A DNA stretch of 64,000 nucleotides from the NCBI RefSeq assembly GCF_030403505.1, contig NZ_JAUEMJ010000001.1:369752-433751 (forward strand), given 5' to 3'. The notes under the pieces are model-generated. The model saw nothing but the letters and a program-made list of their open reading frames with translations, was not told where the DNA came from and made no database searches. The stretch comes from Glycomyces tritici (lineage in GTDB: Bacteria > Actinomycetota > Actinomycetes > Mycobacteriales > Micromonosporaceae). This document shows, in pieces, positions 33,210-46,310 of the stretch. The translations under genes and the position numbers were made by a program. Positions within the stretch are counted from its first letter, which is position 1. Each line of letters starts with the position of its first letter.

Positions 33210-36200
33210 CTACTCCCCGTCGGTCTCGACCAGGCCCCTGATCTGGCGCAGCGACACCGACAGCACCGCGAGCTTCTCGTCCGAGCGGGTGGCCTCGGCC
33301 GTCGCCTCGTGGATCCGCTCGATCTCGGCGGCGTTGCGGTCGGCCCAGGAGTCCACCGCCTCGTCCGGGTCCGTGCCCGGCTTCGCCTGCAGCACGCTCG
33401 CGGTCAGGCCCGCCATCGCGCCGTACAGGTCGTACCGCAGCGCCGAGCGCGCGAGCGTCTGCCACCGGTTCGTGCGCGGCAGCGCCGAGATCTCGTTGAG
33501 GATCGCGTCGAGGTGGACCGTCGCCGCGATCCCGTAGTACACCTCGGCGGTCTGGTGCAGATCGGTGTCGTTGAGCCGCGCGCACTCCACGACGTCGACC
33601 AGGCCGAACCCGAAGATCGGGGCCGAGGCGTCCCGCGCGATCTCCGCGGGCATCCCCTGCTCCTCCAGCTCGTCGCAGAACTGCTCGAACCCGACCGCTT
33701 CGGAGTCGTGGAGCAGCTCCGGCAGGCGCGGCTGCAGCACCGCGAGGCCCGGCCGCAGCCGCTCGGTCTCGGCCGACACGTCCAGGGCCCCGCGCCGGTG
33801 CTGCACGAGCCAGCGCACGCCGCGGTCCAGGAGCCGGCGGATGACCAGCATCCCGGCGATCTGCGCGTCCTGCGGCACCTGGTTGTCGAGCGCCTCGATG
33901 CGCCGCCACAGGTCCGGCAGGCCGAACGCGTCCCGGATGATCACGTACGCCCGGATCACGTCCACGACGTCGGCGCCGGTCTCGTCGGCGATGCGGAACA
34001 GGAACGTGGTGCCCGCCCGGTTCACGGCTTCGCCGACGACCGCGGTCGCCACGATCTCGCGCCGGAGCGGGTGGTCGGCCATGAGGTCGGCGTACGGTTC
34101 GCGAAGCGGTGCGGGGAAGTAGGAGCGCAGCACCGGTGCGGTCCACTCCTCGTCGGGCAGCCCCGAGTCGAGCACCGCGCGCTTCGCCCAGATCTTCACG
34201 TACGAGAGCAGGACCGAGAGTTCGGGTTCGGTCATCGCCGTGCCCGTGGCGACCCGCTCTTTGAGCTGCTTGTCGCTCGGCAGCCCTTCGATCTCGCGGT
34301 CGAGGCCGACCGTCTTCTCCAGGTGCTTCATGAGTCTGATGTGGACGGGCAGGAGGCGGGTGCCCAGGCGGGACGCGTTCGCCAGCGCCATGTTCTGGCC
34401 GTAGTTGTGGGCGAGGACGGCGTCGGCGACGTCGTCGGCCATGTCCATGAACAGCTTGTTGCGGTGTTCGGGTTCGACGCGGCCGGTGAGTGCGGCGGAT
34501 CGGAGGAGGATCTTGATGTTGACTTCGTGGTCGGAGGTGTCGACGCCGGCGGAGTTGTCGATGAAGTCGGTGTTGCAGTGTCCGCCGGTGCCGTCGGGGC
34601 CGCCGGTTTGGGCGTATTCGATGCGGCCGAGCTGGGTGAAGCCGAGGTTGCCGCCTTCGCCGACGACGCGGCAGCGGAGTTGCTCGCCGTTGACGCGGAC
34701 GGCGTCGTTGGCCTTGTCGCCGGCGTCGGCGTCGGTCTGCGCTGTGGATTTGACGTAGGTGCCGATGCCGCCGTTCCAGAGGAGGTCGACGGGGGCGGTG
34801 AGGATCGCGCGGATGAGTTCGGGCGGTGTGAGGTCCTTGGTGTCGGCGTGGATGCCGAGTGCGGTGCGTGCTTCCGGGGAGACGGGGATGGATTTCGCTG
34901 AGCGTTCCCAGACGCCGCCGCCGGCGGAGATGAGGGTGGGGTCGTAGTCGGCCCAGGTGGAGCGGGGCATGTCGAAGAGTCGGCGGCGCTCGGTGTAGGA
35001 GGCGGCGGCGACGGGGTTGGGGTCGATGAAGATGTGCATGTGGTTGAACGCGGCGACGAGGCGGATGTGCTCGGAGAGGAGCATGCCGTTGCCGAAGACG
35101 TCGCCGCCCATGTCGCCGATGCCGACGACGGTGAAGTCCTGTGTCTGGGTGTCGATGCCTTCGGCGGGGTTGTGCTCGTCGCCGTCTCGGGTGAGCCCTC
35201 GGAAGTGGCGTTTCACGGATTCCCATGCGCCTCTTGCGGTGATGCCCATTTTCTTGTGGTCGTAGCCGACGGAGCCGCCGGAGGCGAAGGCGTCGCCGAG
35301 CCAGAAGCCGTATTCGGCGGCGACGGCGTTGGCGATGTCGGAGAAGGTGGCGGTGCCTTTGTCGGCGGCGACGACGAGGTAGGGGTCGTCGCCGTCGTGG
35401 CGGACGACGTTCGGGGGCGGGACGACGGTGTTGTCGGCGTCGCGGTTGTCGGTGATGTCGAGCAGGGCGGAGATGAACTCGCGGTAGCGGGCGACGCCTT
35501 CGGCTTGGAGTGCGGTGCGGTCGGGGAAGTCGGTGCGTTTGAGGACGAATCCGCCTTTGGCGCCGACGGGGGTGATGACGGTGTTCTTGACTTCCTGGGC
35601 TTTGACGAGGCCGAGGATCTCGGTGCGGAAGTCCTCCAGGCGGTCGGACCAGCGCAGGCCGCCGCGGGCGACGCGCCCGTAGCGCATGTGGACGCCTTCG
35701 AAGTGCGGTGAGTACACGAACACTTCGAACATGGGGCGGGGTTTGGGCAGGAAGTCGATGGCGCGGGCGTCGAATTTGAAGGCGACGTGCTCCTTGGGGC
35801 GGCCGGTGTCGGCGCGCTGGAAGTAGGAGGTGCGGAGGGTGGAGCGGATGAGGGTCAGGAAGGCGCGGAGGATGCGGTCGGCGTCGAGGTTGGGGACGGC
35901 GGCGAGGCCTTCGGCGAGTGAGTCGTCGATGCGGGCGACGGCGGCGTCGCGGTCGGCGCCGACGCGGGGGTCGAAGCGGGCTTCGAAGAGCCGTACGAGG
36001 TTCGCCGCGATCTCGGGGTAGGCGCCGAGGGTGGCGGAGATGAAAGCCTGGGAGAACACGAAGCCGCATTGGCGGAGGTATTTCGCGAGGGCGCGGAGGA
36101 CGACGACTTGGCGCCAGGTGAGGCCGGCGGCGATCACGAGTTCGTTGAAGCGGTCGGATTCGGCTTCGCCGGTCCAGGCGGCGCGGAACGCGTTCTCGAA

Positions 36201-38108
36201 GCGGATGCGCAGCTGCGGTACGGATTCGGCGGCGCGGCCGGGCAGTTGGAGGCCGAAGTCGTGGAGGTGGATGGTGCCGTCGGCGCGTTTGATGTGGTAG
36301 GGGCGTTCTTCGGCGACGGTGACGCCGAGGTGGCGCAGGACGGGGAGGGCTTCGGAGAGGCCGATGGCCTGGTCGAAGGCGTAGATCTTGAAGTGGACGT
36401 CGTCGTCGCTGCCGCCGCGGCGGAACAGCTGGAGTTCCATGTCGCCCGGTTCGCGCAGTGTTTCGAGTTTCGCGATGTCCTTGGCGGCGTCGATCGGTGA
36501 GTGCTCGGCCTTGTAGGCGGGCGGGTAGGCGTGGGCGTAGGCCTTGGCGAGCATGCGGGCCTGGCCTTCGCCGATGTGGTGGTCGAGTTGGAGGGCGAGG
36601 TCGGCGTCCCAGGAGCGGGTGGCGTCGGCGAGTTCGGCCTGGATGGACTCGACGTCGACCGGGGGGTGGTCGGCGAAGGGGTCGATGCGGACGACGAAGT
36701 GGAGGCGGGCGAGCACCGATTCGGTGACGCGGGCGTCGTAGTCGATCTGGGAGCCGCGCAGGCGCCGGCGCAGGATCTCTTCGATCTTCTGGCGGTTCTC
36801 GGTGTTGTAGCGGTCGCGCGGGAGGTAGACGAGGCAGGAGTAGAAGCGGCCGTAGACGTCTCGGCGGGCGAACAGGCGCAGGCGGCGGCGTCCGGCGAGG
36901 CGCAGGACGCCCATGGCGGTGGTGTAGAGGTCGTCGGTGCGGGCTTGGAACAGCTCGTCGCGGGGGTAGGTCTCGAGGGCGGTGACGAGGTCCTTCCCGG
37001 AGTGGGAGGAGAGGGTGACGCCGGAGCGTTCCAGGACGTCCTGGACTTTGCGTTTGACGACGGGCAGGTCGGTGACGCTGGAGAGGTAGGCGGCGGAGGT
37101 GAACAGGCCGAGGAAGCGGAGTTCGCCGTCGGGGTTGCCGTCGGCGTCGAAGGTCTTCACGCCGATGTAGTCCATGAAGGACGTGCGGTGGACGGTGGAG
37201 CGGGCGTTCGACTTGGTGATGACCAGGAGCCGCTTGGCGCCGATCTGCGCGCGCGCGTCGGTGTTGAAGGAGGCGAGCGGGCGCGGCGCGGTCGGGGCCT
37301 TGCGCAGCAGGCCCAGGCCGGTCTCCGCCATGGGTGTGAGGGCTTCGTCGTCGCCGGCGCCGGTGAGGCGGTACTGGCGGAAGCCCAGGAACGTGAACTT
37401 GTCGTCCGCGAGCCAGCGCAGGAGTTCGACGGTGTCGTCGATGTCCTTGGGCGGGACGGGGAGGGGCGTGGTGCCTTCGGTGCCGGTGGCGGCGCGGTCG
37501 AGGTCTTCGGCGATCTGGAGGGCTTTGGCGCGCATGGCCTGCCAGTCGGCGACGCACACGCCGACGTCGGAGAGGACTTCGAGGATGTCCGCTTCGAGTT
37601 CGGCGAGGAACGCGGCGTCGGCGACGCGCTGGGTCTCGATGTGCATCCAGGATTCGGCGCGGCCGTCGGCGGCGGGGGCTTCCTGGAGGTTGCCGTCCTG
37701 GTCGCGGCGGACGGGGACGATGGGGTGGACGAACACGGAGACGTCGACGCCGTGCTTGTTGAACAGGCCGGTGAGGGAGTCCACGAGGAACGGGGAGTCG
37801 TCGCAGACGATGTCTACGCGGGTGGAGGAGGCGGCGTCGGGGCCTTCGGCGTCCTCGGGGCAGTCGAGTTCGAGGATGATCTGGCCGGGGGCGCGGACCT
37901 CGGCCATGCGGCGGTGGTGGGCGGTGGTCTCCAGGAGCTGGTGGGCGCTGCGGCCGACGAGGTCGTCGTCGGAGACGAGGCTCCAGTAGAGCTCGACCAG
38001 TCTCGCCAGGGATTCGTCGGGGCCGGCCAGTCGGGCGGCCTCCTGGAGCAGTTCCTCCCGGTCGGGGAGGGTCTCGCGGAACTCTTCGTCGCCGATGAAC
38101 GCCAACAC
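33210..38108 (-). CDS. gdh2: NAD-specific glutamate dehydrogenase (large, 180-kDa class), 1632 aa
   Basis: Catabolic, NAD-dependent oxidative deamination of glutamate to 2-oxoglutarate and ammonia. The protein has the length and domain order of the large Streptomyces/Mycobacterium type: a long N-terminal regulatory half with ACT-like segments (PFLVDSLTGLFNKHGVDVSV near residue 105), then the catalytic core from about residue 830 (RVARGGLRWSDRLEDFRTE, VGAKGGFVLK, GIGDMGGDVFGNGM, FIDNSAGVDTSDHEVN), then a helical C-terminal region. Start GTG at 38108. It has a terminator and no partner gene; divergent from the DUF4178 cassette. It would feed on glutamate of the kind imported by GluABCD. Confidence 0.95.
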   Translation of the reverse strand: MLAFIGDEEFRETLPDREELLQEAARLAGPDESLARLVELYWSLVSDDDLVGRSAHQLLETTAHHRRMAEVRAPGQIILELDCPEDAEGPDAASSTRVDIVCDDSPFLVDSLTGLFNKHGVDVSVFVHPIVPVRRDQDGNLQEAPAADGRAESWMHIETQRVADAAFLAELEADILEVLSDVGVCVADWQAMRAKALQIAEDLDRAATGTEGTTPLPVPPKDIDDTVELLRWLADDKFTFLGFRQYRLTGAGDDEALTPMAETGLGLLRKAPTAPRPLASFNTDARAQIGAKRLLVITKSNARSTVHRTSFMDYIGVKTFDADGNPDGELRFLGLFTSAAYLSSVTDLPVVKRKVQDVLERSGVTLSSHSGKDLVTALETYPRDELFQARTDDLYTTAMGVLRLAGRRRLRLFARRDVYGRFYSCLVYLPRDRYNTENRQKIEEILRRRLRGSQIDYDARVTESVLARLHFVVRIDPFADHPPVDVESIQAELADATRSWDADLALQLDHHIGEGQARMLAKAYAHAYPPAYKAEHSPIDAAKDIAKLETLREPGDMELQLFRRGGSDDDVHFKIYAFDQAIGLSEALPVLRHLGVTVAEERPYHIKRADGTIHLHDFGLQLPGRAAESVPQLRIRFENAFRAAWTGEAESDRFNELVIAAGLTWRQVVVLRALAKYLRQCGFVFSQAFISATLGAYPEIAANLVRLFEARFDPRVGADRDAAVARIDDSLAEGLAAVPNLDADRILRAFLTLIRSTLRTSYFQRADTGRPKEHVAFKFDARAIDFLPKPRPMFEVFVYSPHFEGVHMRYGRVARGGLRWSDRLEDFRTEILGLVKAQEVKNTVITPVGAKGGFVLKRTDFPDRTALQAEGVARYREFISALLDITDNRDADNTVVPPPNVVRHDGDDPYLVVAADKGTATFSDIANAVAAEYGFWLGDAFASGGSVGYDHKKMGITARGAWESVKRHFRGLTRDGDEHNPAEGIDTQTQDFTVVGIGDMGGDVFGNGMLLSEHIRLVAAFNHMHIFIDPNPVAAASYTERRRLFDMPRSTWADYDPTLISAGGGVWERSAKSIPVSPEARTALGIHADTKDLTPPELIRAILTAPVDLLWNGGIGTYVKSTAQTDADAGDKANDAVRVNGEQLRCRVVGEGGNLGFTQLGRIEYAQTGGPDGTGGHCNTDFIDNSAGVDTSDHEVNIKILLRSAALTGRVEPEHRNKLFMDMADDVADAVLAHNYGQNMALANASRLGTRLLPVHIRLMKHLEKTVGLDREIEGLPSDKQLKERVATGTAMTEPELSVLLSYVKIWAKRAVLDSGLPDEEWTAPVLRSYFPAPLREPYADLMADHPLRREIVATAVVGEAVNRAGTTFLFRIADETGADVVDVIRAYVIIRDAFGLPDLWRRIEALDNQVPQDAQIAGMLVIRRLLDRGVRWLVQHRRGALDVSAETERLRPGLAVLQPRLPELLHDSEAVGFEQFCDELEEQGMPAEIARDASAPIFGFGLVDVVECARLNDTDLHQTAEVYYGIAATVHLDAILNEISALPRTNRWQTLARSALRYDLYGAMAGLTASVLQAKPGTDPDEAVDSWADRNAAEIERIHEATAEATRSDEKLAVLSVSLRQIRGLVETDGE

Positions 38109-38318: not shown

Positions 38319-38930
38319 ATGGAAGCCGTCATCATCCTGCTGCTCATCGCCGCCGTCGTGTTCGCCGGCTGGTGGTTGTGGCGCAGGAACTCCCGCAAGA
38401 ACGAACCCGTCCCCCCGCGGCCCCCGGCCGACCCGTTCGCGGACGCCGACACCGACGTGCTGCGCGGCGACCCGCTGCGGCTCAAGGCGGCCGACCTGGT
38501 CGAGCTGTACGGCAAAACCCTCGCCGTGCGCGGCACGCTGCGCCTGTCGGAGGGCGACTACCGGTGGGCCGAGCACTTCCTGGACACCGGCACCGGTGTG
38601 CGGCGCTGGCTGTCGGTCGAGGCCGACCCGGACGTGGAGATGGTGCTGTGGGAGGAGGTCACCGACACCGACCTGCAGCCCGGCCCGCGTGAACTCAGTC
38701 ACGAAGGCGTCTCGTTCAAGTCGGACGAGAAGGGCAAGGCGAAGTACGTGAGCGAGGCGACGACGGGCCTGGCCCCGGCCGGTACGCTGCGCTATCACGA
38801 CTACGCGGGCCCCGACGGCCAGAAGCTGTCCTTCGAGGCGTTCGGCGACGACGCCAAGTGGGAGGTGGCGAAGGGGCTTACCCTGGACCGCAACCAGGTC
38901 ACGATCTACCACCAGAGCGACGAGGCCTGA
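38319..38930 (+). CDS. DUF4178-containing membrane-anchored protein, 203 aa
   Basis: Single N-terminal helix (AVIILLLIAAVVFAGWWLW, residues 3-21) followed by Arg/Lys and Pro and then a soluble domain of about 150 residues. The domain has beta-rich segments GKTLAVRGTLRLSEGDYRW and TLRYHDYAGPDGQKLSFEAF that fit DUF4178. No catalytic residues are obvious. It opens a five-gene plus-strand cluster with gaps of 70, 57, 36 and 13 bp to the next genes. Function unknown; context suggests membrane-associated polyamine or stress biology. Confidence 0.72.
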   Translation: MEAVIILLLIAAVVFAGWWLWRRNSRKNEPVPPRPPADPFADADTDVLRGDPLRLKAADLVELYGKTLAVRGTLRLSEGDYRWAEHFLDTGTGVRRWLSVEADPDVEMVLWEEVTDTDLQPGPRELSHEGVSFKSDEKGKAKYVSEATTGLAPAGTLRYHDYAGPDGQKLSFEAFGDDAKWEVAKGLTLDRNQVTIYHQSDEA

Positions 38931-39000
38931 CCCCCGTTCCCTCCCCCGCGATCCCCGCTCGCCTTCCCCACTGGAGCCCACGCTGATAGCGCATATCGAG

Positions 39001-39492
39001 GTGCCGTTCGTCGACGTCTCGGCCGCCTCGCTCACCTTCCGGCCGGACGCCCCGTCGATGCCGGTCCTGGACCTGCTCGAACGCGACGCCGGACCGCTGC
39101 GGCTCTCGCTGCGGCTGCTCGGCGCGAGCCACCAGGCGGTCGTCGCGACCCCTGACGGGCTCCTCTCGGAGACCCTCGCCTACCGGTCCGATTTCGGGCC
39201 GGACCTGCCCGAGGCGTTCAGCCAGCGGGTCGGCTCGTGGCGGCACCGGTACGAGTGCAGGGTCGAGAAGCTCACGGTTCCCGAACTGCGGCAGCGGGTC
39301 CGGGCCCTGCGCGACCGGGCCGTGCTGCGCACCGGCGAACCGGACCTGCTGGTGGGCGTGTTCGGGGAGGACCCGGACGCGCTCACGGCCCTGGAGGTCA
39401 CCGGGACGGCGCCGCTGTCGTGGCGGACCGTCCACACCTACCCGCAGTACGGCGAAGTCGTGACCACCACGAGCACTGTCGTACCGACGTAG
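39001..39492 (+). CDS. DUF2617 family protein, about 163-169 aa
   Basis: Uncharacterised soluble protein, second in the cassette. Conserved-looking segments are LLGASHQAVVA near residue 45 and HTYPQYGEVVTTTS at the C-terminus, the part that usually defines the family. The GTG at 39001 has only a poor ribosome site. A CTG at 38983, in frame, is preceded by GGAG at good spacing and would add LIAHIE; homologues from memory have a similar lead-in before the FVDVS-like strand. The coordinates use the GTG and the CTG is flagged as the alternative. Confidence 0.7.
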   Translation: MPFVDVSAASLTFRPDAPSMPVLDLLERDAGPLRLSLRLLGASHQAVVATPDGLLSETLAYRSDFGPDLPEAFSQRVGSWRHRYECRVEKLTVPELRQRVRALRDRAVLRTGEPDLLVGVFGEDPDALTALEVTGTAPLSWRTVHTYPQYGEVVTTTSTVVPT

Positions 39493-39549
39493 TCGCAATG
39501 CGCCCGTAAGCTGAACCGACTCCCCGACAGGACGACCCGAGGACCACCG

Positions 39550-40014
39550 ATGACCGATCAGCACCCGCCCCCTCCGCCGCCCGCCTCCCGCGGCCTGAAC
39601 TGGAAGCACTGGACCGCGATCATCGTCGTGATCGCCTTGTGCTGCGGCGGGGTCTTCCTGATGAACACGAACTTCTCGAACCCGACGGACACGATCCGCG
39701 ACCACTACACGCGGGCCGCGAACCTCGACGAGGGCGGCGGCAAGGCGTACACCTCGTCTTCCTCCCCGGCGATCGTGGCCGACCAGATCGACGACGACGC
39801 CGAAGCGCGCTCGGAGCGGTCCTCGGGCGGCACGTACTACCTGCAGTACTCCAAGCACATCGTGGCCGTCTCGCCCTACAACGGCGGCTCGAAGATCATG
39901 CTGCACGACTACCGCAGCGGCTACAACCACTACTCCTCGGTGTTCATCCTGTGGGGATGGTCGTCCTCACCCCCCTCGCCGTTCCGCGGCGGCGGCCCCG
40001 GCTCCGGCAAGTAG
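39550..40014 (+). CDS. DUF4247 membrane-anchored protein, 154 aa
   Basis: Third gene of the cassette. A Pro-rich N-terminus precedes one helix (WTAIIVVIALCCGGVFLM). The extracytoplasmic domain carries GGTYYLQYSKHIVAVSPYNG and RSGYNHYSSVFILWGW, which fits the DUF4247 pattern of a small Tyr-rich domain. The C-terminus is Gly/Pro-rich. No enzyme motif is visible. Start ATG at 39550. Confidence 0.7.
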   Translation: MTDQHPPPPPPASRGLNWKHWTAIIVVIALCCGGVFLMNTNFSNPTDTIRDHYTRAANLDEGGGKAYTSSSSPAIVADQIDDDAEARSERSSGGTYYLQYSKHIVAVSPYNGGSKIMLHDYRSGYNHYSSVFILWGWSSSPPSPFRGGGPGSGK

Positions 40015-40050
40015 CGCGAACCCAACCCAGACAAGGAAAGGCAACCCAAC

Positions 40051-40497
40051 ATGCTCGCACAGGTTGAAAGTCAACTGGGAGGGTTCGGGGGCGACGTCGC
40101 CGGCGCGCTCGCCTACAGCGTCATCGGCATCGCGCTGATGGTGCTCGGATTCTTCATCGTCGACTGGCTCACCCCCGGCAAGCTCGGCGAACTGATCTGG
40201 ACCCACCGCAACCGCAACGCCTCGCTCCTGCTCTCCTCCAACCTGATCGGCGTCGGCCTCATTGTGGTCGGCGCGATCTGGGCCTCGGAGGGGAACCTCG
40301 TCCAAGGCGTCATCTCGACGTTCGTGTTCGGCGTGATCGGCCTGGGCGCCATGGCCGTCGCGTTCCTCATCCTCGACGTGATCACCCCCGGGAAGCTCGG
40401 CGCGCTCGTCGTCGACGAGGAGCCGCACCCGGCCGTGTGGGTCAGCTCCGCCATGCACCTGGCCCTCGGCGGGGTCATCGCCATGGCGCTGTCGTGA
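40051..40497 (+). CDS. DUF350 integral membrane protein, 148 aa
   Basis: Four hydrophobic segments arranged as two related pairs: ALAYSVIGIALMVLGFFIVDWLTPGKLGEL and VISTFVFGVIGLGAMAVAFLILDVITPGKLG share the motif (V/I)(D/V)xxTPGKLG, as in DUF350 duplicated proteins (first repeat about residues 20-48, second about 88-116). DUF350 proteins are often encoded beside polyamine genes. ATG at 40051 follows AAGGAAAGG. Confidence 0.8.
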   Translation: MLAQVESQLGGFGGDVAGALAYSVIGIALMVLGFFIVDWLTPGKLGELIWTHRNRNASLLLSSNLIGVGLIVVGAIWASEGNLVQGVISTFVFGVIGLGAMAVAFLILDVITPGKLGALVVDEEPHPAVWVSSAMHLALGGVIAMALS

Positions 40498-40510
40498 ACC
40501 CGGTGCTGTC

Positions 40511-42088
40511 TTGACCGCTGAGGCCGCCCCTCAGACCGTGATGCCTGCGCGCCGGGTCCGCCTGGCGCGCTTCGGTCTGCTCGCCACCGCGTTCGCGGTC
40601 TCGGCGTGCGGGCTCGTCTACGAACTGGCGCTCATCACCTTGGGCGCCTACCTGGTCGGGAACACCGCGAAGCAGGCGTCGATCGTCCTGGCCGTCATGG
40701 TGTTCGCGATGGGGCTCGGCGCACTGGCGGCGAAGCCGCTGCGGCGCTGGCCGGCGCTGGCGTTCGCCGCGGTCGAGCTCGCCCTGGCCCTGCTGGGCGG
40801 GTTCAGTGTGATGCTGCTGTACGCGGCGTTCTCCTGGACCGACCTGTACAGCCTGCCGCTGGTGGTCGTGGCCGCGGCGATCGGGCTCCTGATCGGCGCC
40901 GAGATCCCGCTGCTCATGGAACTGCTGCAGCGCATCAGGGAGCAGGCCGCGGGCGCGGCCGTCGCGGACCTGAACGCCGCGGACTACCTGGGCGGGCTCA
41001 TCGGGGGCCTGGCGTTCCCGTTCATCCTGCTGCCGTTCTTCGGGCAGATCCAGGGCGCGCTCCTGGTGGGCGCGGTGAACGCCGTCGCGGGCGTCCTCCT
41101 CGTGTGGGTCCTGTTCCGCCACGACCTCTCCAAGGCCGCGAAGCAGCTCCTCACCGTCGTCGCGGCACTGACCGCGATACTGCTGGTGGCCGCGTTCGCG
41201 TACACCGGGAAGTTCGAGACCGCGGCCCGGCAGGCGCTGTACGCGGCGCCGATCGTCTACAGCGAGGACAGCCAGTACCAGCAGATCGTCATGACCGAGG
41301 CCGCCTCGCCGTTCGGCGAGCAGGACCTGCGGCTCTACCTCAACGGCGACCTGCAGTTCTCCTCAGTGGACGAATACCGGTACCACGAGGCGCTCGTCCA
41401 CCCGGCCATGAACGGCCCCCACGAGAACGTCCTGGTCCTCGGCGGCGGCGACGGCCTCGCCGTGCGCGAGATCCTCCGCTACCCCGACGTCGAGACGGTG
41501 ACCCTGGTCGACCTCGACGGGGCCGTCACCGACCTCGCCCGCGAATTCGACGACCTGGTGGCGCTCAACGAAGACGCCATGAACGACCCCAAGGTCGACG
41601 TCGTCAACGCCGACGCGTTCACCTGGCTGCGCGAGCAGACCGGCACCTGGGACACGATCATCGTCGACATGCCCGACCCGGACGCGACCGAGACCGCGAA
41701 GCTGTACTCGGTCGAGTTCTACGGCCTCGCGACCGACCACCTCGCCGAGACCGGCCGGATGGTCGTCCAGGCCGGCTCGCCCTACTTCGCGCCGAAGACG
41801 TTCTGGACCATCGCCTCGACCCTCGAAGCGGCCGGCCACAAGCCCGCCCCGTACTGGGTGTCGGTGCCCAGCTTCGGCGACTGGGGCTACATGCTCGTCC
41901 AGGCGGGCGGCGAAGTCCCCGACCTCGGCCTCGACACCTCCGTCGGCCCGTTCCAGTCCCTCACGCCCGAACTCGTGGAAGCCGCCCAGGTCTTCCCGCC
42001 CGACCGCGACCGCATGGACATGGAGCCCTCCACCCTCATGCGCCCCGTGATCCTCGACCGGGTCGAATCCGAGTGGAACAACTACTGA
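40511..42088 (+). CDS. Membrane-embedded spermidine synthase (polyamine aminopropyltransferase), 525 aa
   Basis: Fusion of about seven N-terminal membrane helices (residues 20-235) with a spermidine-synthase domain (residues about 250-520). The aminopropyltransferase core is visible: YSEDSQYQQIVMTE, the S-adenosyl loop LVLGGGDGLAVREI, VTLVDLD, the substrate gate DMPDPDATETAKLYSVEFY, and GDWGYML near the end. It would use decarboxylated S-adenosylmethionine; no SAM decarboxylase is near. The start is a TTG at 40511 in this reading with no good ribosome site, and ATG at 40541 is an alternative. Last gene of the DUF4178-DUF2617-DUF4247-DUF350 cluster, 13 bp after DUF350. Confidence 0.85.
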   Translation: MTAEAAPQTVMPARRVRLARFGLLATAFAVSACGLVYELALITLGAYLVGNTAKQASIVLAVMVFAMGLGALAAKPLRRWPALAFAAVELALALLGGFSVMLLYAAFSWTDLYSLPLVVVAAAIGLLIGAEIPLLMELLQRIREQAAGAAVADLNAADYLGGLIGGLAFPFILLPFFGQIQGALLVGAVNAVAGVLLVWVLFRHDLSKAAKQLLTVVAALTAILLVAAFAYTGKFETAARQALYAAPIVYSEDSQYQQIVMTEAASPFGEQDLRLYLNGDLQFSSVDEYRYHEALVHPAMNGPHENVLVLGGGDGLAVREILRYPDVETVTLVDLDGAVTDLAREFDDLVALNEDAMNDPKVDVVNADAFTWLREQTGTWDTIIVDMPDPDATETAKLYSVEFYGLATDHLAETGRMVVQAGSPYFAPKTFWTIASTLEAAGHKPAPYWVSVPSFGDWGYMLVQAGGEVPDLGLDTSVGPFQSLTPELVEAAQVFPPDRDRMDMEPSTLMRPVILDRVESEWNNY

Positions 42089-42233
42089 CCCGGCGCACCC
42101 CGCCCCGCACGTGAACGCCGTCCGCCGCAACCCGGCCCGAACCGCACCGCGGCACCGGCTCGGCACACTGCGCTATCCTGACACTCCCCTCGCCCCCAGC
42201 CCCACCAGCCCACCATTCACACAAGGAACCCCA

Positions 42234-42644
42234 GTGACCGCACCGCAGAACCCATACCTCGTCCCCGTCAAGTACGGCACCGGCCTCTCCGTCCTCAACA
42301 TCGTCGCGGGCGGCCTCCTCCTGCTGCTGGGCGTGCTCGCGCTCCTCGGCGGCAGGTTCAGCTTCTGGCTCGTCCTCGGCCCGCTCCTCCTGGCCATGGG
42401 CATCCTCTCCCTCACCAGGCCCTACGCCACCTACGACACCGCGACCGGCGCCCTGGACCTGTTCCACCCCTTCGGCTACCGCATGCGCTCCTACGGCGCG
42501 CCCAAGGGCGAGCGCATCTACTTCGACCCGGCCAAGTCCAAGATCATGCGCGCCCGCCAGAGCGGCGGCCCCCGCAAGGTCAGCATGGTCGGCATGAACC
42601 GCGACGACCTCGCCCGCCTCATCGCAGTCCTCCCCCAGGCCTGA
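42234..42644 (+). CDS. Small membrane protein, 136 aa
   Basis: Two adjacent hydrophobic segments (residues about 20-40 and 45-65) are followed by a soluble PH-like or charged domain (GYRMRSYGAPKGERIYFDPA, then IMRARQSGGPRKVSMVG). No family recognised. GTG at 42234 follows AAGGAAC. It starts 145 bp past the spermidine synthase and may or may not belong to the same transcript. A GC-rich hairpin with a homopolymer block follows. Confidence 0.65.
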   Translation: MTAPQNPYLVPVKYGTGLSVLNIVAGGLLLLLGVLALLGGRFSFWLVLGPLLLAMGILSLTRPYATYDTATGALDLFHPFGYRMRSYGAPKGERIYFDPAKSKIMRARQSGGPRKVSMVGMNRDDLARLIAVLPQA

Positions 42645-42742: not shown

Positions 42743-44314
42743 CTACTTCGCCCCGAGCACGGTCTCCTCGCCCACGACGACCTCCTCCAGGAGATCCACC
42801 GTCTCCCGCAGCTTCACAGGGGTGAGGAACAGTGCCGCGATGAACCCGACCGCCGCGATGCAGGCCGAGATCATGAACAGGTGCCCCGTCGCGTCCCCGT
42901 AGGAGGCGCGCACGATCTCGGCGACCGGCTCGGGCATCCCATCCAAGTCCAGTGTGGATCCGCCGAGACTGCCGCTCGCATCGATGCCCAGGGCCGCAAG
43001 GCCCGAGGCGATCTTGTCCGCGACCTGGTTCGCGAGAACCGCGCCCAGGACCGACACGCCGATCGTGCCGCCGAGCGAACGGAAGAACGCGATCGCGCCC
43101 GAGGCCGCACCGAGCTCGCGCAGCGGCACCGAGTTCTGGACCACCAGCACGAGGTTCTGCATGGCCATGCCGACCCCGGTGCCGACCAGGAACATGCCCG
43201 CCCCCATGAACACCAGGGAGGTCGTGTGGTCGATGGTCGCGAGCATCGCGAAGCCGCCCGTCAAGACCAGTGCGCCGGTGACGATGTACGGCTTGACCTT
43301 CCCGGACTCGGACACCATCCGCCCGGCCACCGCGGAGGAGACCATGACGCCGAACATCATCGGGATGGTCAGCAGCCCGGCCTCGGTCGGCGAGAAGCCG
43401 CGGGCGATCTGGAAGTACTGGCCGAGGAAGACCGCGCCGCCGAACATGGCCATGCCCACCGCGAGGCTGGCGACGACCGCGAGCGCGGGGTCGCGGCGCC
43501 TGATGACGTGCAGCGGCACGACCGGATCCTTGACCTTGGCCTCAACGACCGTGGCCGCGCCGAGCAGGAGCACCGAGCCGGCGACCATGAGCGCGGTCTG
43601 CCAGGAGATCCAGTCGAAGTCGTTGCCCACGAACGTGACCCACAGCAGCAGCAGGCTGACGCCCGCGGCGATGAGCGTCGCACCGAGGTAGTCGATCTTC
43701 GTGTCGGGCCGCTTCGTCTCGGCCAGGTGCAGGGTGCGCTGGAGCATCAGGAAGGCCACGACCGCGATCGGGACGGCCAGGAAGAAGCACCACTGCCAGC
43801 CGAGCCAGTCGGCGTCGGTGATCGCGCCGCCCAGCAGCGGTCCGCCCACAGTGGAGACGGCCATGACGGCCCCGAGGTAGCCGTTGTACCGGCCGCGCTC
43901 CTTCGGGCTGACCATCGCGCCGATGATCACCTGCACGAGGACCTGCAGGGCGCCCATGCCGAGGCCCTGGACCGCGCGGAGGGCGATGAGCTGGCCCGTG
44001 TTCTCCACCAGGCCGCACAGCAGCGAGGCGGCGGCGAAGATGACGATCGCGATCTGGAGCAGGCGCTTCTTGTCGAACAGGTCGGCGAGCTTGCCCCACA
44101 CCGGCGTCGACGCCGTGCTCGCGAGGAGGGTCGCGGTGACGACCCACGTGTACTGGGACTGCGTGCCCTCGAGGTCGCCGACGATCTGCGGGAGCGCGAC
44201 GGAGACGACGGTGGACGAGACCATCGCCGCGAACAGGACCATGAGCAGGCCGGAGAGGGCCCGCATGATCTCGCGGTGGGTCATCGGCGCGGGTGCGGCG
44301 GTTGCGGCGGTCAA
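42743..44314 (-). CDS. MFS drug:H+ antiporter (DHA2, 14-TMS), 523 aa
   Basis: Export pump of the EmrB/QacA type. Hydrophobic profile fits 14 helices. The family signature near the second helix is TATLLASTASTPVWGKLADL and the antiporter motif C lies in GPLLGGAITD. The start is TTG at 44314, 7 bp after a perfect AGGAGG; the frame is open upstream but a TTG with that site is the best start. It is divergent from a TetR regulator with an operator between them, which points to ligand-induced export. Confidence 0.9.
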   Translation of the reverse strand: MTAATAAPAPMTHREIMRALSGLLMVLFAAMVSSTVVSVALPQIVGDLEGTQSQYTWVVTATLLASTASTPVWGKLADLFDKKRLLQIAIVIFAAASLLCGLVENTGQLIALRAVQGLGMGALQVLVQVIIGAMVSPKERGRYNGYLGAVMAVSTVGGPLLGGAITDADWLGWQWCFFLAVPIAVVAFLMLQRTLHLAETKRPDTKIDYLGATLIAAGVSLLLLWVTFVGNDFDWISWQTALMVAGSVLLLGAATVVEAKVKDPVVPLHVIRRRDPALAVVASLAVGMAMFGGAVFLGQYFQIARGFSPTEAGLLTIPMMFGVMVSSAVAGRMVSESGKVKPYIVTGALVLTGGFAMLATIDHTTSLVFMGAGMFLVGTGVGMAMQNLVLVVQNSVPLRELGAASGAIAFFRSLGGTIGVSVLGAVLANQVADKIASGLAALGIDASGSLGGSTLDLDGMPEPVAEIVRASYGDATGHLFMISACIAAVGFIAALFLTPVKLRETVDLLEEVVVGEETVLGAK

Positions 44315-44396
44315 GAGACGGCCTCCTAGGGTGTTGCTGGAGGAGGGCCGGGGGGTCGTTGGGCCCGGCGGCCGGAGACATGAAGACGCCGCAATG

Positions 44397-44453
44397 TAGT
44401 GAACGCTGCGTCTCTTATATAACGCTAGCATTTAGTGAACGCATCGTTCACTA
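44397..44453. promoter_or_regulatory. Operator for the divergent MFS/TetR pair
   Basis: A 9-bp perfect inverted repeat, TAGTGAACG-3-CGTTCACTA (44433-44453), and a second left arm TAGTGAACG at 44397 with a weak right arm. Between them is the AT-rich TATATAACGC. It is 16 bp before the TetR start. Confidence 0.75.
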
Positions 44454-44468
44454 CCGAAGGGATGGCCG

Positions 44469-45068
44469 GTGACCGATTCCACAGCGAGCCGCAGACGCGG
44501 CGACGACCTCGAACGCGCGATCTTCGAGGCCGCCCTGGAGGAGTTGGCCGAAGTCGGGTACGCCAACCTCCGCATGGAGGCCATCGCCGCCCGCGCCAAG
44601 GCCGGCAAGGCGTCCCTCTACAAGCGCTGGCCCGACCGCGCGCACCTCGTGCGCGCCGCCGCCCGCTACAAGGCGACCGAGGTCGAGACCGATTTCGAAC
44701 CGAGCGACGACGTGCGCGCCGACTTCGCGCGCGTCATGCGCTTCATCGCCGACTACCAGAACGGGCCCTTCGGCGAGGCCATCCGCGGCTGGGTCGGCGA
44801 GCTCGGCTCCTCCCCCGCCGACGAGGCCGAGGCCGAGGACCTGCGGCAGCGGATCGAGACACCGCGCATCATGGTCTTCGCCAAGATCCTCAAGCACGGC
44901 GTCGAACGCGGCGCGGTCCGCCCCGAAGCCCTCCAGCCGCGCGTGGTGAACCTCGCCCCGAACCTGCTCACCCACTACTTCCTCACCCGCGGCCACGCCG
45001 CCCCGCAGCAGGTCGTCGACGAGATCCTCGACCAGGTCGTGATGCCCCTGATCACCGCCGACCGCTGA
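44469..45068 (+). CDS. TetR-family regulator of the MFS pump, 199 aa
   Basis: N-terminal helix-turn-helix RMEAIAARAKAGKASLYKRW at residues about 35-55. The C-terminal half is a TetR_C-like ligand domain. GTG start at 44469 with GGCCG just upstream. Probably represses itself and the divergent pump through the TAGTGAACG palindrome. Confidence 0.88.
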   Translation: MTDSTASRRRGDDLERAIFEAALEELAEVGYANLRMEAIAARAKAGKASLYKRWPDRAHLVRAAARYKATEVETDFEPSDDVRADFARVMRFIADYQNGPFGEAIRGWVGELGSSPADEAEAEDLRQRIETPRIMVFAKILKHGVERGAVRPEALQPRVVNLAPNLLTHYFLTRGHAAPQQVVDEILDQVVMPLITADR

Positions 45069-45122: not shown

Positions 45123-46310
45123 TCACCCCTTGACGCAGACGACCTGGCGCAGCCGCGCCACGATCTCCACCAGGTCCGACTGGGCGGCCATGACCTGCTC
45201 GATGTCCTTGTAGGCGCCGGGGATCTCATCGAGCACCCCAGCGTCCTTGCGGCACTCGACGCCCTCGGTCTGGGCGATCAGGTCCTCGGCGGTGAAGCGC
45301 CGCTTCGCCGCGTTCCGGCTCATCTTCCGGCCCGCGCCGTGCGAGGCCGACTCGTAGGCCTCGCCGTTGCCCAGCCCGCGCACGATGAAGCTCGAAGCGC
45401 CCATCGAACCCGGGATGATCCCCATGTCCCCCAGGCCCGCCCGGATGGCGCCCTTACGGGTGACCAGGAGGTCCTGGCCGTCATGGGTCTCCTCGGCCAC
45501 GTAGTTGTGGTGGACTGAGATCTCCGGTTCGAAGCGGACCTTCGCGAACCGCTTCTTGACGACCTGGCGCAGCAGCGCCATCATGACCGCCCGGTTGCGG
45601 CGCGCGTACTCCTGCGCCCAGTACAGGTCGCGCCGGTAGGCCTCCATCTGCGGCGTGTCCGACACGAACACCGCCAGGTCGGGGTCCGGCAGGGCCGCGT
45701 TGTGCGGCAGTCCCTTCGCCTTCTCGATGTGGTGCTGCGCCAGCGCGTTCCCGACGTAGCGGGAACCGGAGTGGAGCATCAGCCAGACCTGTCCGTCATC
45801 GGATAGACAAACTTCGATGAAGTGGTTGCCTCCGCCCAGGGTGCCGAGCTGCTTCATCGCCTTCGCCTCGGTCCGCCGGGCCACCTGCGGGGCCAGGTCG
45901 TCGAAGCCGGACCAGAACTCGTGCCAGCCGTGCAGGCCTGTCTTGACGTGGCCGGTGTCGACCGAGTTCTTGTGCATGGCCTGGCCGACCGGAATGGCGG
46001 CCTCGATCGCCGAGCGGAGCCGCCCGAGGTCGTCGGGCAGGTCGTCGGCGGTGAGCGAGGTCCGCTGCGCGGTCATGCCGCAGCCGATGTCCACCCCGAC
46101 CGCGGCGGGCGAGACCGCACCGCGCATCGCGATGACGGAGCCGACCGTGGCGCCGATGCCGTAGTGCACATCGGGCATAACCGCCACACCGTGAACCCAG
46201 GGGAGCTTCGCGATGTTGTGGAGCTGGCCGAGCGCCTGCGGCTCGACCGAGTCGACGTCGCCCCACAAGCGGATCGGAGCCGCCTTGGACTTGAGGTCGG
46301 TGAAGGACAT
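45123..46310 (-). CDS. rtcB: RNA-splicing ligase RtcB, 395 aa
   Basis: GTP-dependent, Mn-requiring 3'-phosphate/5'-OH RNA ligase for RNA repair. Metal-site motifs are VGVDIGCGM (near residue 75), GGGNHFIEVC, LHSGSR and VHHNYV. The guanylate-accepting His is in SHGAGRKMSR near residue 335. Length matches the shorter bacterial RtcB subgroup. No archease or RtcA/RtcR gene is adjacent. The upstream 231-bp gap holds one DnaA-box-like site and nothing else recognised. Confidence 0.95.
   Translation of the reverse strand: MSFTDLKSKAAPIRLWGDVDSVEPQALGQLHNIAKLPWVHGVAVMPDVHYGIGATVGSVIAMRGAVSPAAVGVDIGCGMTAQRTSLTADDLPDDLGRLRSAIEAAIPVGQAMHKNSVDTGHVKTGLHGWHEFWSGFDDLAPQVARRTEAKAMKQLGTLGGGNHFIEVCLSDDGQVWLMLHSGSRYVGNALAQHHIEKAKGLPHNAALPDPDLAVFVSDTPQMEAYRRDLYWAQEYARRNRAVMMALLRQVVKKRFAKVRFEPEISVHHNYVAEETHDGQDLLVTRKGAIRAGLGDMGIIPGSMGASSFIVRGLGNGEAYESASHGAGRKMSRNAAKRRFTAEDLIAQTEGVECRKDAGVLDEIPGAYKDIEQVMAAQSDLVEIVARLRQVVCVKG

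Follow-up and report, generated by a model that had tools for sequence, protein, structure and literature searches.

The available passages of Ravi et al. (2024; PMC11237479) describe operons in which a fusion of seven transmembrane (7TM) segments with spermidine synthase, DUF350 and DUF4178 stand beside PspA and CesT/Tir, as well as a variant without PspA and CesT/Tir that carries DUF4247 (CCP45395.1) and DUF2617 (CCP45394.1). The same passages interpret DUF2617 as an enzyme of beta-sandwich fold in which two histidines are conserved. A 64,000-nucleotide stretch of the Glycomyces tritici genome (contig NZ_JAUEMJ010000001.1, positions 369,752 to 433,751; hereafter the window) contains, at positions 38319-42088, a cassette in which all five members of this variant (7TM-SpeE, DUF350, DUF4178, DUF4247 and DUF2617) are present. 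The initial annotation regarded it as a candidate for an undescribed system, a claim overtaken by the publication of the association in 2024 (PMC11237479). The cassette is already known, and its new element is probably the identity of DUF2617 as a cryptic S-adenosylmethionine (SAM) decarboxylase.

The five open reading frames (ORFs) lie on the plus strand with intergenic gaps of 70, 57, 36 and 13 bp, as initially described, and the Pfam matches to all five confirm four uncharacterised domain families and an aminopropyltransferase:

38319..38930, plus strand: DUF4178 protein, 203 aa (PF13785 1.8e-33), with an N-terminal hydrophobic segment seen by eye
39001..39492, plus strand: DUF2617 protein, 163 aa, GTG start (Pfam 3.1e-35), the proposed cryptic pyruvoyl SAM decarboxylase
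39550..40014, plus strand: DUF4247 protein, 154 aa (PF14042 4.6e-23), with an N-terminal membrane segment seen by eye, likely exported
40051..40497, plus strand: DUF350 (YjfL-family) membrane protein, 148 aa (PF03994 3.4e-25)
40511..42088, plus strand: membrane polyamine aminopropyltransferase, TTG start listed (Spermine_synth 2.7e-35; PRK03612 659.6 bits)

The main form of the polyamine-linked PSP operon has the PspA and CesT/Tir pair, whereas neither is present in the five cassette genes and the ORF after them. For the published operons the available text also mentions a SAM decarboxylase and a polyamine oxidase; a scan of the six cassette-side ORFs detected neither family. The two antisense ORFs across the cassette (277 and 343 aa) gave no Pfam match. 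The two accessions given above presumably belong to M. tuberculosis proteins. The synthase gene of that species, Rv2601, is named speE (PMC11841054, available part).

The association was followed in a class-level sample of 128 genomes, in which membrane SpeE was called by NF002956 over the cut-off and the neighbourhood was set to 5 kb. The 26 places with membrane SpeE are spread over 25 genomes. Nine of these places hold the five-gene cassette, five lack DUF4247, three lack DUF2617, one lacks DUF4178, and eight have DUF2617 alone beside the synthase. All 23 DUF2617 places (a G115 gene that is in two pieces was taken as one place) and all 13 DUF4247 places are near membrane SpeE, as are 17 of 21 places of DUF4178 and 18 of the 33 DUF350 places over the cut-off. 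Loci found by DUF2617 in named genomes (the best 80 of 570 confirmed) carry a same-strand membrane SpeE without exception (80/80); 29 are five-gene loci, one has four genes, and 50 consist of DUF2617 and SpeE only, these being all from Streptomycetaceae (four are cut short upstream). Both counts exceed chance, and the locus composition in the two surveys defines DUF2617 and SpeE as the core and the other three genes as accessory. The proposal that the genes belong together was exposed to the possibility of independent scatter, which was not seen for DUF2617 and DUF4247, but DUF350 is often located elsewhere. No fusion of DUF2617 and the synthase in one open frame was found among the collected loci. 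Plasmid records gave no DUF2617, although they contain relatives of membrane SpeE, all below 60% identity. Several loci of family f51 (L163, L164, L166, L173, L179 and L180) have a further gene between DUF4247 and DUF350, which encodes a membrane protein whose tail is rich in Pro and Gln.

SpeE requires decarboxylated SAM, which in the known pathways is made by SpeD. Of the 128 class-level genomes, 6 have SpeD (PF02675); 5 of these 6 are among the 25 that carry membrane SpeE, and the three cassettes without DUF2617 (G051, G127, G098) are all in SpeD genomes. Two genomes, G038 and G132, carry both DUF2617 and SpeD, and there the SpeD site reads ASH...AYG, not ESH...TCG. The prediction that SpeD with an intact site would be present where DUF2617 is missing was fixed before a survey of 249 genomes of the order, which include 75 with membrane SpeE, 61 with DUF2617 and 52 with SpeD. 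The 75 membrane-SpeE genomes divided into 58 with DUF2617 only, 15 with SpeD only, one with both (G154, in which the SpeD match is weak and has an in-frame stop) and one with neither (G228, 82% complete, with SpeE at a contig end). In the order sample the site was read at 30 SpeD loci, covering 9 of the 15 SpeD-only genomes, and is ESH...TC at all 30; at the class level it was read in G051 and G127 and is QSH...TC in G098, the reading as a whole leaving out G021, G195, G365 and G366. In 15 of the 16 SpeD-only genomes of both surveys DUF4178, DUF4247, DUF350 and SpeE are kept and DUF2617 is gone; in the remaining one the locus is cut off by a contig end.

A control panel of 14 genomes followed the same rule: SpeE-like matches were found in 10 (one over the cut-off). 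Of these 10, 8 have SpeD, and the two that do not, C. glutamicum and H. volcanii, have DUF2617. Among the first 50 of the 80 named DUF2617 genomes SpeD was found in three, all Streptomyces, two of which have the ASH...AYG site and one the usual ESH...TC. Membrane SpeE is lacking from two DUF2617 genomes of the order, G351 (where it is a broken partial copy) and G330 (none within the 9 kb read). The idea that SpeD merely lies elsewhere in the genome was rejected, as SpeD is absent from 6/6 same-genus genomes of the order sample and from the 26 membrane-SpeE genomes of family f1. The eukaryotic family PF01536 had no match in the 128 class-level genomes, a result of little weight, since no control matched either.

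Several observations concern these genes individually. In G330 the DUF2617 gene (L175) has no cassette member within the 9 kb read, and a weak soluble-type SpeE match occurs elsewhere in the genome. Four loci (L123, L124, L184, L185) encode Streptomyces-type SpeD homologs with ASH...AYG instead of ESH...TCG; because an ORF beside the homolog at L123 resembles a phosphopantetheinyl transferase by eye, such proteins may serve a secondary-metabolite pathway. At L127 a single ORF fuses SpeD with a soluble SpeE-like domain.

The DUF2617 sequence itself can be set against that of SpeD. The actinobacterial SpeD sequence contains ...ESHASLHTYPETGDIFVDVFTCG, a motif shared with solved bacterial SpeDs, and in DUF2617 the first half carries LGASHQ...ETxA[C/Y] and the second half WRTVHTYPQYG. 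The motifs of the eukaryotic SAM decarboxylase are likewise split over two halves. The positions of interest in the window are:

39127..39129, plus strand: codon of Ser43, where self-cleavage (Ala42|Ser43) and pyruvoyl formation are proposed, from conservation and the SpeD register
39181..39183, plus strand: Tyr61 codon, at the position of the SpeD active-site Cys (alignment column)
39385..39387, plus strand: Thr129 codon, opposite Thr57 of actinobacterial SpeD (profile alignment)
39433..39435, plus strand: His145 codon, within T-V-H-T-Y-P-Q-Y-G, opposite SpeD His70 (profile alignment)

An hhalign comparison of the DUF2617 alignment with SpeD scored 26.5, against a maximum of 22.5 and a mean of 12.5 for 200 column-shuffled SpeD profiles; the second half alone scored 26.8 (shuffle maximum 22.3, E 3.1e-4). 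The six best gapless windows of the first half share one register, which places Ser43 on Ser65 of SpeD (the pyruvoyl precursor), and those of the second half place His145 on His70. Structural alignment ranges begin at residue 44 of the DUF2617 model, opposite human residue 69. Ser43, His44, Glu57, Phe121, Ala127, Thr129, Trp141, His145, Tyr147 and Pro148 are invariant where covered in 281 distinct rows (Ser43 279/279, Thr129 280/280, His145 279/279), so that the catalytic His and the Ser/Thr of the SAM decarboxylase motif have invariant counterparts in His145 and Thr129. As the best 80 of 570 loci were found by a pattern containing Ser43 and His44, they are no evidence for these two residues, which are nevertheless kept in 36/36 covering rows among 38 from profile searches and in 169/169 rows from the protein search. 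Position 61 is Cys in 221 and Tyr in 59 of 280 rows, and the nameable Tyr61 rows are from Glycomyces, Salininema and Haloglycomyces.

DUF2617 thus has in common with SAM decarboxylases (PF02675, class 1b; PF01536, eukaryotic) the Ser-His at the proposed pyruvoyl site, a conserved Cys or Tyr, the T-x-H-T-[YW]-P-[EQ]-x-G motif and SpeE as a genomic partner. It differs from them in its size of about 160 aa, in having the two motifs in separate halves, in the Ala before the Ser and in the lack of a family-model match. The initial statement that no SAM decarboxylase is adjacent is right for the known Pfam families in the scanned genes, but in substance it is probably wrong. A link between DUF2617 and SAM decarboxylase was not found in the available passages of the open-licence literature, including PMC11237479 and PMC13118837.

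The synthase of the cassette is a member of the PRK03612 membrane polyamine aminopropyltransferases, passing the curated NCBIfam equivalog cut-off (659.6 versus 472 bits) with no difference seen. Its seven hydrophobic segments (residues 24-231) agree with the roughly seven extra helices noticed before, and are followed by a C-terminal synthase domain, in which residues ~235 to 480 match aminopropyltransferases of the PDB down to 5.5e-30. Its donor and amine site residues, in the stretches GGGDG, DEYRYHE, D-x-x-DP and P-SF, have aligned counterparts in the solved enzymes. Because the cut-off is passed and these sites align, the synthase should be active.

We consider it likely that the cassette is a self-sufficient membrane aminopropylation module in which DUF2617 acts as a strongly diverged, two-half SAM decarboxylase. 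DUF2617 would cleave itself at Ala42|Ser43, converting Ser43 into a pyruvoyl group, and would then decarboxylate SAM with the aid of His145 and Thr129 from the second half. Decarboxylated SAM would pass to the adjacent membrane-anchored SpeE for transfer of the aminopropyl group to an amine, in the simplest case a diamine, which would yield spermidine or a relative. DUF4178, DUF4247 and DUF350 would be accessory proteins linking the reaction to the membrane or the cell surface, a role already suggested for the PspA-linked relatives. Gene order, the conservation of the cassette and of its residues, the replacement of DUF2617 by SpeD and the profile match are observed directly; self-cleavage, decarboxylation, the product and all the accessory roles are inferred.

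Several results weigh against a SAM decarboxylase function of DUF2617. Neither PF02675 nor PF01536 matched any of 45 DUF2617 members at E <= 10, and for this reason DUF2617 is not filed as a member of the SAM decarboxylases; it probably works like one and is a remote relative. Sequence searches of DUF2617 against the PDB brought no significant hit (best E 1.4 with the single sequence and 0.67 with the profile), and Foldseek found no match at E <= 0.001 in the PDB (both models) or among viral models (first model). The probability reported by hhalign itself is 39.5% for the second half and 10-19% for the whole of DUF2617, the first half does not reach significance by itself (9.0 versus a mean of 11.6 in 100 shuffles), and the second structural search was weak. 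H. volcanii resembles the cassette genomes in having a membrane SpeE, a DUF2617 match and no SpeD match; the available part of PMC5178350 reports two 7-TM SpeE homologs in it and no SAM decarboxylase homolog in halophiles, states that no spermidine was detected, and leaves the source of the donor as an open question. The missing family-level match, the weak structural search and the spermidine result would all suit a DUF2617 that is a non-catalytic partner or, as in the available passages of PMC11237479, a beta-sandwich enzyme unrelated to SAM decarboxylase, with the synthase using SAM or another donor. Such a protein would not account for the replacement pattern, for a profile match above 200 shuffles or for the agreement, at the pyruvoyl serine, between the register from sequence and that from structure, and we regard it as unlikely. 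The limits of the genome comparison also belong here: the exclusion of DUF2617 and SpeD among membrane-SpeE genomes (Fisher's p 1.1e-13) treats relatives as independent, and in a tree of 53 synthases (quick method, with Shimodaira-Hasegawa-like approximate likelihood ratio support) the presence of DUF2617 changes 4 times. Supported branches leave 3 independent pairs, and SpeD takes the opposite direction in a mean of 2.9 of the 3 (p 0.25 by the sign test).

With only 3-4 independent contrasts, the complementarity could be a lineage effect with no functional link, the more so as the membrane-SpeE genomes of family f51 have SpeD in 11/11 cases and those of f1 have DUF2617 in 26/26. However, the mixed family f8 (14 DUF2617, 3 SpeD) obeys the rule, as do single genomes of f9 and f34 and the control panel, and the remaining cassette genes stay in place where DUF2617 is gone, which makes a mere lineage effect very improbable. 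DUF2617 might also be a SpeD-derived pyruvoyl decarboxylase of ornithine, arginine or lysine that supplies the acceptor and not the donor. The substrate of SpeD homologs changes readily, and they have become ornithine and arginine decarboxylases several times (PMC10407285, available part); divergent SpeD-like proteins with ASH...AY, as in the Glycomyces DUF2617, occur in Streptomyces. Nevertheless, an amino-acid decarboxylase would leave the synthase donorless in most of its genomes and fails to explain why DUF2617 is missing precisely where SpeD is present, so we give this possibility little weight.

DUF4247 raises the question of where the cassette acts. The protein ends in Lys after a Gly-rich tail at 73/73 loci (some genomes contribute more than one locus, and the last 16 residues occur in 39 distinct forms), in the window as follows:

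39985..40011, plus strand: DUF4247 C-terminal tail RGGGPGSGK, last residue Lys, from the tail comparison across loci

This constant ending suggests that the C-terminus is processed or modified; no mention of the terminal Lys was found in the available literature passages on the cassette. Seven hydrophobic segments were seen at 107 of 127 synthase loci, with the N-terminus inside by charge in 107/107, and on this basis the synthase domain is predicted to lie outside. The 20 residues past the last segment are fairly basic (mean 2.7 K+R versus 2.7-3.9 inside), which fits a synthase domain inside. Two options are left, a failure of the topology rule at the last segment or a system that works outside. 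The outward charge pattern and the DUF4247 Lys led us to consider that the module modifies surface proteins. This seems extremely unlikely in view of the basic stretch and of the 50 of 80 loci with DUF2617 and SpeE and without DUF4247; the Streptomycetaceae, where DUF4247 is mostly missing next to DUF2617 and SpeE, show that its partnership is not obligatory. Moreover, we know of no precedent for the export of a decarboxylated-SAM donor. The initial argument that the enzyme does not simply make spermidine because a decarboxylase is lacking is weakened by DUF2617 being a likely decarboxylase, yet the predicted topology and the DUF4247 Lys leave room for envelope modification.

The closest named relatives of the DUF2617 of the window are from Glycomyces, with 94% identity in Glycomyces sp. 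YM15 among the matches listed, and all named matches of at least 75% over most of the length are from this genus. Downstream of the cassette, an ORF at 42111-42644 (GTG start listed) has hydrophobic segments by eye and no Pfam match; its relatives lie 3' of the cassette in eight genomes of the Glycomyces group (L043, L044, L046, L047, L049, L051, L053 and L022/L129, the last two being one genome), and it may be a sixth cassette member in Glycomyces. It is followed at 42743-45065 by genes for an MFS transporter (PF07690) and a TetR regulator in divergent orientation, and then by an RtcB ligase (45123-46310, minus strand). Upstream, a 1632-aa ORF on the opposite strand (33210-38108, minus) resembles by eye a large NAD-dependent glutamate dehydrogenase.

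A spermidine synthase homolog without any known donor-making enzyme is present in many actinobacteria and in H. volcanii. Should DUF2617 prove to be the missing decarboxylase, a reaction could be assigned to a Pfam family that so far has no function, this family would represent a new minimal form of pyruvoyl enzyme, and a polyamine pathway would be complete in groups including Streptomyces, Micromonospora and Corynebacterium.

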